In this document: positions 9,378 through 22,285 of the stretch, in pieces
How the letters are laid out: the number at the start of each line of letters is the position of its first letter
Numbering within the stretch: the stretch's first letter is position 1
DNA from: an uncultured delta proteobacterium
Lineage (GTDB): Bacteria; Desulfobacterota; Desulfobulbia; Desulfobulbales; Desulfurivibrionaceae
Length of the DNA: 64,000 bases
Reading direction: 5' to 3'
Assembly (NCBI GenBank): GCA_903869265.1
Contig: CAIPYE010000007.1
Location: 1 to 64,000, forward strand
The notes under the pieces: model-generated
Seen by the model: the letters and a program-made list of their open reading frames with translations, nothing else
Databases searched by the model: none
Told to the model about the DNA's origin: nothing
Translations under genes and position numbers: made by a program

Positions 9378-10331
<954 letters not shown>

Positions 10332-12862: not shown

Positions 12863-14236
12863 ATGCTCTTACGACATACACCCACAGAGATTACCGAGCG
12901 CACGGCCTTGACCATTAATCCGGCCAAGACCTGTCAGCCCATCGGCGCCATGTACGCGGCTCTCGGCATCCACGGATGCCTGCCGCACAGCCATGGTTCC
13001 CAGGGTTGCTGCGCGTATCACCGCTCCGCCCTGACCCGGCATTACAAGGAGCCGATCTCCGCCTCCACCAGCTCTTTTACTGAGGGAGCTTCGGTCTTCG
13101 GCGGCCAGGCCAATATGCTGCAGGCGATCAATAACATATTCACCGTCTATAACCCCGAGGTGATAGCCATCCACACCACCTGCCTCTCCGAGACCATCGG
13201 CGACGATCTGCCCCAGATCAAGAAAAAGGCGGCCGCGGAAGGCAAGATCCCCGAGGGCAGATATGTGATCAGCGCCTCCACCCCGAGCTACGCGGGTTCC
13301 CATGTTACCGGCTTTTCCAACATGGTTAAATCCATGGCCGGGATGGCCGAGCCGACAGGGAAGAAGAACGGCAAGGTTAACATCATTCCCGGCTGGGTCG
13401 AGCCTGCCGATATGGAGGAGATCAAGCGGATCACCGGGGTGATCGGAGTGAAGACCATCCTCTTTCCGGATACCTCCGGCGTGCTCAACGGCCCGCTCTC
13501 CGGCGAGTACAAGATGTTTCCGGAAGGCGGCACCACCGTGGCCGAGCTGAAAAGCACCGGGGATTCCAAGGGAACCCTGGCCCTGGGCGAGTGGTGCTCG
13601 GCCGATGCGGCCCGGGAGCTTGATACCAAGTGCAAGGTGCCCTGTTCGGTGCTGGATATGCCCTTTGGCCTGATGGCCACGGATCGGTTCATCGATGCCC
13701 TGCGGACCATCGCCGGGGTGAACATCCCCGATGAGATTCTCAATGAGCGCGGCCAGCTGGTGGACATGATTTCGGACATGCACCAGTATCTCTACGGCAA
13801 AAAAGTGGCCCTGGTCGGCGATCCGGATCAGCTCATCGCCATGACCGAGTTTCTCGTCTCCATGGATATGAAGCCGATCCATATTGTTACCGGCACCCCA
13901 GGCAAGAAATTTGAAAAACGGATCAAGGAGATCACCAAGGACATGGGCTGCAAGGTCAATGTCAAGGCCAAGGGGGACATGTTCCTCCTCCATCAGTGGA
14001 TCAAGAATGAACCGGTGGATCTGATCATCGGCAATACTTACTGCAAGTATATTGCCCGGGACGAGGACATCCCCTATGTGCGATGGGGTTTTCCCATTCT
14101 GGATCGACAGGGGCACCAGTACTTCCCAACCGTGGGCTACAAGGGCGGCCTCAGGCTGCTGGAGAAGATCACAGGCGTTTTGCTCGACCGGAAAGACCGA
14201 GATGATTCCGAGTCGAAGTTCGAGCTGGTCCTGTAG
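12863..14236 (+). CDS. nifK: Nitrogenase molybdenum-iron protein beta chain (short anaerobe-type N-terminus)
   Basis: TCQPIGAMYAALGIHGCLPHSHGSQGCCAYHR, TTCLSETIGDDL; directly after nifD. Confidence 0.98.
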   Translation: MLLRHTPTEITERTALTINPAKTCQPIGAMYAALGIHGCLPHSHGSQGCCAYHRSALTRHYKEPISASTSSFTEGASVFGGQANMLQAINNIFTVYNPEVIAIHTTCLSETIGDDLPQIKKKAAAEGKIPEGRYVISASTPSYAGSHVTGFSNMVKSMAGMAEPTGKKNGKVNIIPGWVEPADMEEIKRITGVIGVKTILFPDTSGVLNGPLSGEYKMFPEGGTTVAELKSTGDSKGTLALGEWCSADAARELDTKCKVPCSVLDMPFGLMATDRFIDALRTIAGVNIPDEILNERGQLVDMISDMHQYLYGKKVALVGDPDQLIAMTEFLVSMDMKPIHIVTGTPGKKFEKRIKEITKDMGCKVNVKAKGDMFLLHQWIKNEPVDLIIGNTYCKYIARDEDIPYVRWGFPILDRQGHQYFPTVGYKGGLRLLEKITGVLLDRKDRDDSESKFELVL

Positions 14237-14341
14237 AAAGCGGGGACAACTTTCTGATTTGTCCCCAAGCACACAATGAAATGGCGGTGGCGGGGGAAAT
14301 GATTCCCCCGTCGCGTCTTGCGCATTAGGCCGGAGGCTGGT

Positions 14342-15487
14342 GTGACCATTATTCATTTTCCCAAATCCAAGCAAGGGTGCGGTGGCAAGATTCCCGAGTG
14401 GCTTATTCTGCCGGTTGCTCCTCAGGCTGCAGCCCGGATTCGTTTCTCCGGGGAGGACAAACTGCCTCAGGCAGTGCCCCTCCGGGGAGCGCTCACCTGG
14501 ATTGCGGATTTGCTGGCCCAGGGAAACGATATCAAGGGGTTGGATCTTCATGGCCCCGGTGACCCTCTGGCCACCGTGACCATGACTCGGGATATTCTGG
14601 TCATGCTGCGAGAACACTATCATAATTTACCCTTGGGCATTACCACCCTGGGGCTTGGCCTGGACGAACATGCCAACCTGTTGGCCGAGTGCGGAGTTGC
14701 CAGGGTTACCCTGCTGGTGGATGCTGTCACTCCGCAGACGATCAAAAAAATGTACACCTGGATTCGGCCGGGCAAACGCAACACCCCACTGGCGGAAGCG
14801 GCCGAGATCCTGATCGAGGCGCAGGCCAAGGGAATCGCAGCCTGCAAAGCGGCAGGCATGGCGGTCTCTGTTCAGACCACGGTGTATGCCGGGATCAATG
14901 ATCAGGAGGTTGAGGAAATTGCCCGCCAGGTTTCCGCTCTTGGGGCCGGGCCCATCAGCCTGATTCCCGGAAAGGGATGGTTGAATACGGAAGAGAAGCT
15001 GCCTCTGCCTTCGGAAAAAACCATGACAGAGCTGGCACAAAAGGTTGCCCTCCACATACCGGTTGTTTGTCTGCCGGAACAGGCAACTCGAGGCGAAGGT
15101 ATTCCGCCGATCGCAGAAGGCGGCATGGCGGTGCCCAAGCCGACTGCAGCCAGACCCAATGTGGCCGTGCTCAGTTCGAACGGCATGGATATCGATCTCC
15201 ATCTCGGTCAGGCCATCAAAGCCCTGATCTATGGGCCGAGGGAAGACGGCTTGGCCTGCTTGCTCGAGACCCGGGATCTCCCCGAGCCTGGCAGCGGCGA
15301 CAATCGCTGGGAGCAGGTGGCCGGGATCTTGGCGGATTGTTTTGTGCTTCTGGCCGCAAGCGCCGGGCAAAAGCCGAGGGATATCTTAGCCCGCCACGGT
15401 CTGACCGTGCTGCTTCTGGAGGACAATGTCGAGGGCACGGTGGACGTGCTTTACGGCGGCGGCAAGAAAGGAAAAAACAGGAAATAA
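14342..15487 (+). CDS. NifB-like protein lacking the radical SAM Cys motif, with C-terminal NifX-like domain
   Basis: Keeps LPVAP, HGPGDPLAT, IKKMYTWIRPGK and VYAGINDQE blocks aligning with NifB at 21011-22285, but NCNIKCNYCDRKYDC is replaced by QAAARIRFSGEDKLP. GGAGG precedes a GTG start. Confidence 0.8.
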   Translation: MTIIHFPKSKQGCGGKIPEWLILPVAPQAAARIRFSGEDKLPQAVPLRGALTWIADLLAQGNDIKGLDLHGPGDPLATVTMTRDILVMLREHYHNLPLGITTLGLGLDEHANLLAECGVARVTLLVDAVTPQTIKKMYTWIRPGKRNTPLAEAAEILIEAQAKGIAACKAAGMAVSVQTTVYAGINDQEVEEIARQVSALGAGPISLIPGKGWLNTEEKLPLPSEKTMTELAQKVALHIPVVCLPEQATRGEGIPPIAEGGMAVPKPTAARPNVAVLSSNGMDIDLHLGQAIKALIYGPREDGLACLLETRDLPEPGSGDNRWEQVAGILADCFVLLAASAGQKPRDILARHGLTVLLLEDNVEGTVDVLYGGGKKGKNRK

Positions 15488-15514: not shown

Positions 15515-15820
15515 ATGGCTATACCAGCGCGTCAGATAATCGTTTGCCAGAGCTTCCGGGTTGCCGGCGACAAGAAGGGCATTTGCCACAAGCAGACCGA
15601 AGGGTTTCTGCAATACCTTGAAGAAGAGGTGCTCGACCGGGGGCTGGACTGTCTGATCAGCGCCACCACCTGTCTCAAACAATGCGAGTCCGGGCCCATC
15701 ATGGTGATCCAGCCGGAGAACTGGTGGTTCAAAGGGGTGGACAGCGAAGAGGCGATTGATGCGATCCTTGACGGCCTTGAGGATGGCACCCCTGCCGCTA
15801 ACTATCTCATCAGCGTATAG
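15515..15820 (+). CDS. Thioredoxin-fold [2Fe-2S] ferredoxin (nif-associated)
   Basis: Cys pattern IIVCQSFR...GICHKQ...TTCLKQCESGPIMVIQPENWWF. Confidence 0.8.
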   Translation: MAIPARQIIVCQSFRVAGDKKGICHKQTEGFLQYLEEEVLDRGLDCLISATTCLKQCESGPIMVIQPENWWFKGVDSEEAIDAILDGLEDGTPAANYLISV

Positions 15821-16071: not shown

Positions 16072-16371
16072 ATGGGCCTAAAACCTCTGGGAACAGTGAA
16101 AACCATTGTCGAGGCGGCCGGAATGGGTATCTCCTATGTCTATGACGATCTGGTCTTTTTGGAGCATAACTCCTTTTTGCTTCAGTTCACCGACAATGAC
16201 CGGGAGGTCATGATTCATGTGAACAGCGAGGCGGAGGAGGCCACGGTGCAGAGCGATATAGAGAGATTGCAGCAAGTCGCGCTTGATCACACCATGCGTT
16301 TTACCCGCGGGACGCACTACACCTTGGTCCCGGATGAAAAGGATACCATCCGCATCGAATTCAGTGAGTAG
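16072..16371 (+). CDS. Hypothetical protein, nif operon (99 aa)
   Basis: Co-directional ORF with short gaps to its neighbours; family not recognised. Confidence 0.7.
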   Translation: MGLKPLGTVKTIVEAAGMGISYVYDDLVFLEHNSFLLQFTDNDREVMIHVNSEAEEATVQSDIERLQQVALDHTMRFTRGTHYTLVPDEKDTIRIEFSE

Positions 16372-16384
16372 GCAGGGAGGGTGC

Positions 16385-16834
16385 ATGGCACAAGCAGTTA
16401 TACGACCGGCCAACCCTGGTGATCTTGTTGCCTTGGTGGATCTGCTCCGGATCCTTTTTTCCATCGAGGCGGATTTTGATTTTGATCCAGCCAAGCAGCG
16501 TCAGGGTTTGGCCATGCTCTTGGCCCATGAGTCAGCGGTTATTCTGGTTGCCGAGGAAGCGGGACAGGCTATCGGCATGTGTACCGGACAGCTCACCATT
16601 TCTACTGCCGAGGGGGGACTTTCTCTGCTGGTGGAGGATGTGGTGGTCGCCGAATCATGGCAAGGGAGGGGCGTGGGGCGAGCATTGTTGACTGCCCTGG
16701 AGCAATGGGGTGCAAGCAAAAAGGTCGGGCGTCTTCAGCTTCTAGCCGATCGGAATAATGCAGCGGCCTTGGAATTTTACCGCAAGATCGGTTGGCAGGG
16801 GACAAAACTCATCTGTCAACGCAAACGACTATAA
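16385..16834 (+). CDS. GNAT-family N-acetyltransferase
   Basis: VEDVVVAESWQGRGVGRALLTALEQW (acetyl-CoA loop), NNAAALEFYRKIGW. Confidence 0.88.
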   Translation: MAQAVIRPANPGDLVALVDLLRILFSIEADFDFDPAKQRQGLAMLLAHESAVILVAEEAGQAIGMCTGQLTISTAEGGLSLLVEDVVVAESWQGRGVGRALLTALEQWGASKKVGRLQLLADRNNAAALEFYRKIGWQGTKLICQRKRL

Positions 16835-16850
16835 CCGAGGAGGGAGAACC

Positions 16851-17306
16851 ATGGCGGAATCAGGGAAGGCAAAGGTCGTTCCCCTGGCAGGATTTCCCGA
16901 GCTCAAAAGTGAAGCCATCAAGGGATGGCAGGAGTTTCTCCAGGAGGGCAATCAGTTCCTGGCTACGGCGAACAATGCCTATACGCAACGGAGAGAACCA
17001 TTCACCACCGAGATTCTTTACAATCTGGTGGCCATGGCCATGGAAAAACTGATCATGGCCATGCTCATGAAAAACGGGAAGCTGCCGTATAATCACACCA
17101 TGCACGATCTGGTGGAGGCCATTGATGAGTTTTTGCCCGGCGAACTGGAGGGTCTGGGGGCAGAGCTTAAAGCGTGGGACGGGTTTCAGGATATCTGCGA
17201 CATCGAGAGCTACTCCATCACACCCCCGACCATGGGGCAGATAGGCGGCATGCTCAAACTTGCCCTGGAAGTGCAGTCGCGAATCATGACCTCTATTACA
17301 AATTAA
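16851..17306 (+). CDS. HEPN-like helical protein in nif operon
   Basis: AMAMEKLIMAMLMKNGKLPYNHTMHDLVEAIDEFLP resembles HEPN helical pattern; family assignment tentative. Confidence 0.55.
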   Translation: MAESGKAKVVPLAGFPELKSEAIKGWQEFLQEGNQFLATANNAYTQRREPFTTEILYNLVAMAMEKLIMAMLMKNGKLPYNHTMHDLVEAIDEFLPGELEGLGAELKAWDGFQDICDIESYSITPPTMGQIGGMLKLALEVQSRIMTSITN

Positions 17307-18162: not shown

Positions 18163-18177
18163 TGGCACACCCCTTGC
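18163..18177 (+). promoter_or_regulatory. Sigma-54 promoter of nifENB
   Basis: TGGCACACCCCTTGC matches the -24/-12 consensus. Confidence 0.85.
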
Positions 18178-18219
18178 TCTTACTCCTTTGTAACTCAACT
18201 ACACAGGAGTAAAGACGAC

Positions 18220-21010: not shown

Positions 21011-22285
21011 ATGAGCGAGATACACAAAGACCTGAACAAACATCCCTGTTTTAATCCGGCCATGAAAGGACAGGCCGGTCGCGTCCATCTGCCGGTGGCG
21101 CCGAACTGCAATATCAAATGCAATTACTGCGACCGCAAGTACGACTGCGTCAACGAGTCGCGGCCTGGGGTGACCAGTACGATTCTGAGCCCGGAGCAGG
21201 CTCTGGTCTACATGGGCAAGGTTCTTGAAAAGGAGCCGCGCATCACCGTGGCCGGCATCGCCGGACCCGGCGACCCCTTTGCCAATGCAGAGGCGACCAT
21301 GGAAACCATGCGGTTGATCAATAAAAATTACCCGCAGATGATCCTGTGCCTTGCCAGCAACGGGTTGGGTATCACCCCCTATATCCCCGAGTTGGCGGAG
21401 CTGAATGTTTCCCATGTGACCATCACCATCAATGCCGTTGACCTGGAGGTGGGGAGTAAGATTTACAGCTGGGTGCGGGATGGCAAGGTGGCTTACCAAG
21501 GCCGCCAGGCGGCGGAGCTGCTGCTCTCCCGGCAGTTGGAGGCGGTCAAGTCCTTGAAGGCCCACGGTATCACGGTGAAGATCAACTCCATCCTGATTCC
21601 GGGAATCAATGATCAGCATATCCTTAAGGTTGCGGAAACCATGAAGGAGTTGGGTGCCGATCTTTTCAACTGCATGGCCATGTTCCCCAATGTTGGGACG
21701 CCATTCGGCGCGATCCGCGAGCCATCCAAGGAAGAGGTCGGGGCAATGCGCACCGAGGCGGAGAAGTTCCTGCCCCAGATGCGCCACTGCACCCGTTGCC
21801 GGGCCGATGCGGTGGGGCTGCTGGATCAGGATCGGACCGAGGAGATGCGCGGCTGTCTTTCCGCTTGCGCCCAACTCCCAGCTCTGCCTCCGGAAATCCG
21901 ACCCTATGTGGCAGTGGCCACCATGGAGGGGGTTTTGGTCAACCAGCATCTTGGCGAGGCCAATCGCTTCCAGATTTACGAGCGCAAGGGGGACGAGTAC
22001 CTGCTGGTGGAAGAGCGACCTGCGCCAAAGGTAAGCGGCGGCTTGCAGCGCTGGACCTCGCTGGCCCGGGCCTTAAACGATTGCCGGGCGGTTCTGGTGA
22101 GCAACGTAGGCGAAACGCCCCGCGGGATTCTTGAAAAAGCAGGCGTAAAGCCGGTGGAGATGGGGGGGTTTATCGTGGATGGGGTGAAGGCGATCTACGA
22201 AGGCGCCAGTATCGCGCCCCTGCAGAAACGAAAGAAGTCCTGTGCCTCCGGCGGCTGTGTCGGGTCTGGCGGCGGGTGCTCTTAA
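21011..22285 (+). CDS. nifB: NifB (radical SAM plus C-terminal NifX-like domain)
   Basis: HPCFNPAMKGQAGRVHLPVAPNCNIKCNYCDRKYDCVNESRPGV. Confidence 0.98.
   Translation: MSEIHKDLNKHPCFNPAMKGQAGRVHLPVAPNCNIKCNYCDRKYDCVNESRPGVTSTILSPEQALVYMGKVLEKEPRITVAGIAGPGDPFANAEATMETMRLINKNYPQMILCLASNGLGITPYIPELAELNVSHVTITINAVDLEVGSKIYSWVRDGKVAYQGRQAAELLLSRQLEAVKSLKAHGITVKINSILIPGINDQHILKVAETMKELGADLFNCMAMFPNVGTPFGAIREPSKEEVGAMRTEAEKFLPQMRHCTRCRADAVGLLDQDRTEEMRGCLSACAQLPALPPEIRPYVAVATMEGVLVNQHLGEANRFQIYERKGDEYLLVEERPAPKVSGGLQRWTSLARALNDCRAVLVSNVGETPRGILEKAGVKPVEMGGFIVDGVKAIYEGASIAPLQKRKKSCASGGCVGSGGGCS

Follow-up and report, generated by a model that had tools for sequence, protein, structure and literature searches.

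A NifB-like pseudoenzyme encoded directly after nifK is a candidate nitrogenase assembly factor

A 64,000-nt stretch of DNA from an uncultured delta proteobacterium of the order Desulfobulbales (contig CAIPYE010000007.1, positions 1 to 64,000, here called the window) encodes, directly downstream of nifK, a NifB-like pseudoenzyme that we term pNifB. Its sequence, predicted structure and distribution point, on balance, to a NifB-derived, non-catalytic nitrogenase assembly factor or cofactor chaperone that would act in the manner of NifX, NafY and NifY. For this function we infer cofactor binding, a partner and a direction of transfer, of which the partner is the weakest link. The nif cluster of the window includes the following features.

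9414 to 9429, forward strand: sigma-54-type -24/-12 site with one mismatch, upstream of nifH
12863 to 14236, forward strand: nifK, directly upstream of pNifB (BLAST and context)
14342 to 15487, forward strand: pNifB, NifB-like pseudoenzyme of 381 amino acids, with a GTG start, GGAGG at 14332-14336 and 36 related loci
15515 to 15820, forward strand: thioredoxin-like 2Fe-2S ferredoxin (fdx) of the subtype that goes with pNifB (NF041612, 52 bits)
16349 to 16834, forward strand: GNAT acetyltransferase-like gene (Pfam Acetyltransf_1), often found with pNifB, as an association only
18163 to 18178, forward strand: sigma-54-type site without mismatches, upstream of nifE and of a separate nifE-N-B unit
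21011 to 22285, forward strand: canonical NifB with all motifs intact (TIGR01290, 398.8 bits, above the cut-off)

The pNifB frame runs uninterrupted from a GTG codon at 14342, 5 nt downstream of the GGAGG sequence, through 381 codons to a stop at 15485-15487, and the coordinates, frame, start, ribosome-binding site and position after nifK given in a preliminary description of this DNA were all verified. The gap from the end of nifK (14236) is 105 nt and that to the start of the ferredoxin ORF (15515) is 27 nt, and no sigma-54-type site with 0 or 1 mismatch precedes pNifB. Based on these short gaps and the distribution of sigma-54-type sites, pNifB is probably a member of the nifH operon, together with the structural genes. 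The interval between nifK and pNifB contains an inverted repeat, GGGGACAA-CTTTCTGAT-TTGTCCCC, at 14242-14266, which is unique in the genome when up to 3 mismatches are allowed; it is possibly an mRNA-processing or stability element. Further downstream, at 16848-17306, lies a gene for a small nif-cluster protein with a weak HEPN match (under the cut-off), which is kept in most loci of the order.

Over its whole length, pNifB can be aligned with the canonical NifB of this cluster (BLASTP 128 bits, E 1e-37, 27% identity over 392 columns), and the best phmmer matches are NifB structures of the PDB (E 2.6e-17). The NifB model TIGR01290 scores pNifB at 106.3 bits (E 1.5e-30), short of its cut-off of 343.65. 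An AlphaFold2 model built from an input alignment of pNifBs and NifBs has a mean pLDDT of 86.6; most of either domain exceeds 90, and the linker is disordered. Given a pTM of 0.66 and this linker, the relative placement of the domains was left unused. Foldseek matched the predicted barrel to the NifB crystal structure 7jma (TM 0.90, target length) and to 6y1x (E 7.7e-19), and the second domain to NifX in the NifEN-NifX complex (9ian_F, E 8.6e-6, TMt 0.63). The homology to NifB that had been proposed by eye is therefore recovered by profile and structure searches alike, and the landmarks on which it rested, LPVAP, GPGDP, MYTWIRPGK and VYAGINDQE, are all present in pNifB. Within the protein, we assign the following features.

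14396 to 15061, forward strand: degenerate radical-SAM (NifB-type) barrel, residues 19-240 (AlphaFold pLDDT mostly >90)
14423 to 14467, forward strand: QAAARIRFSGEDKLP, residues 28-42, standing in for the Cx3Cx2C...C cluster-binding loop of NifB, without Cys and about 10 residues shorter
14552 to 14566, forward strand: GPGDP, residues 71-75, the GPG motif kept from NifB
14759 to 14770, forward strand: WIRP, residues 140-143, a family signature (WVRD in NifB)
15152 to 15466, forward strand: NifX-like domain (Nitro_FeMo-Co, PF02579), residues 271-375, followed by a Lys/Arg-rich tail (Pfam, fold and profile-profile comparison)
15200 to 15202, forward strand: codon (CAT) of H287, the equivalent of the NifB-co ligand H35 of Azotobacter vinelandii NifX
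15338 to 15340, forward strand: codon (TGT) of C333 in DCF, with a counterpart in the DCR of NifB

Judged by the fingerprint motifs of NifB itself, pNifB is not a NifB. In an alignment of 72 pNifB orthologues with 40 canonical NifBs, the Cx3Cx2C radical-SAM motif (QAAARIRF in the window copy) and the K2 site Cx2CRxDAxG (CxxCRxDAxG) are each found in 0/72 pNifBs, and the C-terminal CxxC site is likewise absent from all of them. The ligands of K1 fare little better, with HPC in 1/72, H43 in 12/72, C129 in 8/72 and the C63 column deleted in all 72, and TxTxN survives in a single pNifB, the Asn of the SNG segment also being gone. Among the canonical NifBs, Cx3Cx2C, CxxCRxDAxG, HPC and TxTxN are found in 34-39 of the 40. 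The NifB loop that bears C63 and ExRP is deleted in pNifBs: at the aligned place the ExRP segment is gapped in at least 49 of 52 sequences, with neither E nor R in the remainder, and unrelated ExRP strings occur elsewhere in 18/72. In NifB, the lost positions have been assigned as ligating the SAM, K1 and K2 clusters (PMC6053413, PMC7145814).

Other positions are kept, and some family signatures are new or sharpened. G71 and G73 are invariant (72/72), P72 is found in 71/72 and position 74 is Asp in 70 and Glu in 2, so that GPG[DE] is present in 71/72 pNifBs; the Ala preceding GPG is mostly changed. The Asn of GIND is kept in 71/72. In the WIRP signature, W140 and R142 are invariant (72/72) and P143 is present in 71/72, at a position where Asp is usual in NifB. 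DCF is found in 69/72, versus DCR in NifB. The replacement of NCNIKCNYCDRKYDC by the segment at residues 28-42, described earlier as free of Cys, was confirmed for that segment; the protein as a whole does contain cysteines, of which C333 is shared by all orthologues (72/72).

The C-terminal NifX-like domain is upheld by fold and by profile-profile comparison, with a marginal Pfam match: PF02579 scores 24.6 bits in the protein scan and 26.8 bits in the six-frame search, against a cut-off of 26.3. By profile-profile comparison, the pNifB domain is closer in sequence to the C-terminal domain of NifB (E 1e-38) than to NifX (E 2.8e-6); the NifX set comprised 10 ORFs, three of them in the wrong frame (L122, L126 and L127), and the pairwise alignment was made to a correct one (L121). 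H287, present in 72/72 orthologues, aligns His-on-His with the NafY core 1p90 in a sequence alignment and with NifX in the profile comparison. NifX carries NifB-co to NifEN via H35, and the same His is found in the NifX-like domain of NifB and in NafY (PMC13128457). The NifX equivalog TIGR02663 (112-bit threshold) did not match pNifB at E up to 0.1, and in genome searches (E up to 0.001) it found nothing at the place of pNifB. A Pfam scan at E up to 0.1 returned Radical_SAM and Nitro_FeMo-Co only, the NafY-type N-terminal domain PF16844 being absent.

A scan of one genome per species identified 36 pNifB-related loci, those precisely named belonging to Desulfobulbaceae-type bacteria. Cultured species with an orthologue include Desulfogranum japonicum (L031), Desulfopila aestuarii (L033) and Desulfopila sp. 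IMCC35008 (L035). The frame is open in 35 of them (the copy in L037 is disrupted), nifK lies just upstream in 36/36, and the order nifH-nifI1-nifI2-nifD-nifK-pNifB-fdx is found wherever the contig is long enough. In an order-wide profile search of 243 genomes, of which 153 have a NifB-type protein, 136 gave a pNifB match above 300 bits, mostly beside a second, canonical NifB match. Across the phylum, 17/395 genomes have pNifB; three families beyond the order are represented among them, and there too the gene sits between nifK and fdx. The orthologue search proposed in the preliminary description thus found the same slot occupied in other members of order and phylum; the viral contigs searched gave no match.

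The family is separate from NifB by descent. In a maximum-likelihood tree, rooted at its midpoint, 52 pNifBs fall on one side of a branch and 37 NifBs on the other, with support of 100/100. These sequences are most simply read as the product of a single ancient duplication, after which some lineages lost the gene. Nitratidesulfovibrio vulgaris and members of other families in the phylum have nif clusters that lack pNifB, and so does G240, a diazotroph of the same family as the window organism, where nifK is followed by a small gene and then the ferredoxin in an otherwise similar cluster. In Desulfovibrio vulgaris Hildenborough, the nif-cluster genes for which there are data are needed on N2 (PMC10102598). 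Because D. vulgaris fixes nitrogen and G240 has a nif cluster, both without pNifB, the protein is not generally essential; it is an accessory found in certain lineages rather than a core component.

pNifB shares with NifB (TIGR01290) the two-domain order, the barrel fold, GPG, the Asn of GIND and a NifX-like C-terminal domain with its His and DC pair, and is paralogous to it by sequence. It differs in lacking Cx3Cx2C, the CxxCRxDAxG K2 site, HPC, TxTxN and the C63/ExRP loop, in forming a clade of its own and in being encoded beside nifK. With NifX, NafY and NifY (PF02579; TIGR02663), it has in common the fold of the C-terminal domain, a cofactor His in register (1p90, 9ian_F), a place among the nif genes and an apparent lack of catalysis; unlike them, its domain is not standalone but joined to a degenerate NifB barrel, and the N-terminal domain of NafY is missing.

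We propose that a paralogue of NifB lost its catalytic function and was turned into a nitrogenase assembly factor. The NifX-like C-terminal domain of this factor would hold NifB-co or FeMo-co via H287, and docking and shielding would fall to the dead barrel. The barrel of NifB docks in the valley of NifEN, which is homologous to NifDK (PMC13031127), so the dead barrel could still dock. Given a dead barrel, an intact NifX-like domain and a gene encoded with NifDK, pNifB would most likely carry a cofactor or precursor via H287 and dock on apo-NifDK or NifEN. The likeliest partner may be apo-NifDK, which pNifB would stabilize or cap until cofactor insertion, NifEN being the second candidate; apo-NifDK is preferred because the pNifB gene comes next after nifK in the nifH-I1-I2-D-K unit, which is suggestive only. 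NifY follows nifK in other bacteria. NafY and NifY bind and cap apo-NifDK and leave upon cofactor insertion (PMC6016461). Among the functions put forward in the preliminary description (cofactor carrier, NifB/NifEN chaperone or regulator), the NifX-type His in 72/72 and the Cx3Cx2C and CxxC sites in 0/72 favor a carrier or chaperone over a regulator, and the partner is suggested by context.

Several points weigh against a chaperone. The His is also present in the NifX-like domain of NifB and may have been kept for reasons inherited with the fold. The finding of NifX above its curated cut-off in 0/17 pNifB genomes of the phylum sample and in 20 others would fit a chaperone role, but the absence of classical NifX may reflect phylogeny; we rejected this mutual exclusion as proof of substitution, since the genomes with NifX come from other families. 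Short NifX-like ORFs also lie near nifB in several pNifB genomes (G145, G301, G404 and G455), and such an ORF next to nifB, with a score under the NifX cut-off, is seen in a number of members of the order (L041, 817-1143; G145, G404, G455, G401 and G411). In addition, G240 and D. vulgaris do without pNifB. The further proposition that the dead NifB is a dedicated NifDK cofactor chaperone in the whole order, an independent solution to the job of NafY, NifY and NifX with a co-evolving 2Fe-2S ferredoxin, is one that we advance tentatively and hold to be doubtful.

A different role, which we consider unlikely, is that of a regulator or scaffold of active NifB or NifEN that would tune the flux of NifB-co and need not bind a cofactor of its own. 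The conserved barrel fold with its GPG, WIRP and GIND landmarks, the docking of NifB on NifEN (PMC13031127) and the coexistence of pNifB with a canonical NifB that it does not replace are all consistent with such a role. However, the pNifB gene is grouped with nifDK rather than with nifENB, a unit that has a sigma-54-type site of its own, and docking through the barrel only predicts a barrel more conserved than the C-terminal domain. The reverse is seen across the 72 orthologues, with 3.06 bits per column in the NifX-like domain, 2.39 in the barrel and 1.4 in the linker.

We also considered whether pNifB and the 2Fe-2S ferredoxin form a nitrogenase protection or electron-delivery module, comparable to the Shethna FeSII protein, in which the cofactor-like domain would be a mere adaptor; this appears improbable. 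pNifB is directly upstream of fdx, and a single ferredoxin subtype, at 67-96% identity to the window copy, is found in 50/50 of the pNifB-positive loci that hold the gene, versus 41-55% identity in pNifB-negative loci that have a ferredoxin, with the exception of G240 (94%); some negative clusters are without one. Yet in G240 the ferredoxin is kept and pNifB is missing, other clusters that lack pNifB also have a ferredoxin gene after nifK, and the ferredoxin belongs to the D. vulgaris cluster needed on N2 (PMC10102598), which argues for a role of its own. The GNAT gene accompanies pNifB in most positive loci, whereas every pNifB-negative locus examined, G240 among them, lacks it. Both the ferredoxin-subtype and the GNAT associations rest on few evolutionary events and may reflect shared descent.

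We give little credence to retained catalysis or another metal site in pNifB, such as a cluster bound via C333, H287 and N-terminal cysteines. C333 is invariant, many pNifBs have a Cys near the N-terminus, and an outlying clade keeps the His at the H43 position and the Cys at the C129 position of K1. Against this, conservation does not extend to the N-terminal cysteines, C333 may have a structural role, being just as well conserved in canonical NifB (DCR), and TxTxN and the SNG Asn were lost along with the Cys motif. The outlying clade comprises the family f18 pNifBs (L043, L044 and L046-L049), and the pNifB of L052 keeps HPC and the H43 His; to judge by their sequences, these proteins are possible intermediate stages of ligand loss.

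Pairwise dN/dS of pNifB ranges from 0.11 to 0.47, similar to NifN and above NifK, and the barrel usually has a higher value than the NifX-like domain. The dN/dS analysis suggested in the preliminary description thus indicates purifying selection across orthologues, and its argument for selection over random decay is borne out by the orthologues, the dN/dS values and the invariant residues. On the same evidence we rejected a decayed nifB duplicate: decay, or an assembly or frame artifact, would accommodate a barrel that evolves faster than NifK or NifE and the disrupted copy in L037 but is scarcely credible given 35/36 open frames, 136 genomes of the order, the dN/dS range, the invariant residues and deep monophyly.

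A search of open-access papers turned up no account of a NifB pseudoenzyme, and the available part of the 2017 NifB survey of Arragain et al. (PMC5715403) describes neither a conserved pseudo-NifB family nor a post-nifK slot. According to that part, 28% of NifB hits were excluded, most of them lacking Cx3Cx2C and taken for NifX. These entries, annotated as NifB, with a NifX domain and no Cx3Cx2C, possibly include pNifBs, so the family has probably been overlooked rather than unseen. Surveys that count NifB hits without a motif check will count pNifB as NifB, and those that set such hits aside as NifX miss a genuine family. How the cofactor moves between NifB, NifEN and NifDK is an open question of nitrogenase biology, and this step is a bottleneck for the engineering of nitrogen fixation. 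As a conserved pseudoenzyme derived from NifB, pNifB is a natural separation-of-function variant that shows what the fold does in the absence of radical chemistry, and it offers a test of whether a NifX-like domain and a barrel suffice to hold and deliver a cofactor.

Three matches on N. vulgaris plasmids were rejected as pNifBs on account of low identity and, in the two examined, a position after nifN, the place of canonical NifB; in these two clusters, nothing is annotated between nifK and fdx. On the N. vulgaris RCH1 plasmid (L085, NC_017311.1), the nifB region is annotated only as a C-terminal NifX-like part and the match falls in two pieces, so this nifB may be interrupted or misannotated. 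In N. vulgaris strain L2, nifB is a full-length CDS.
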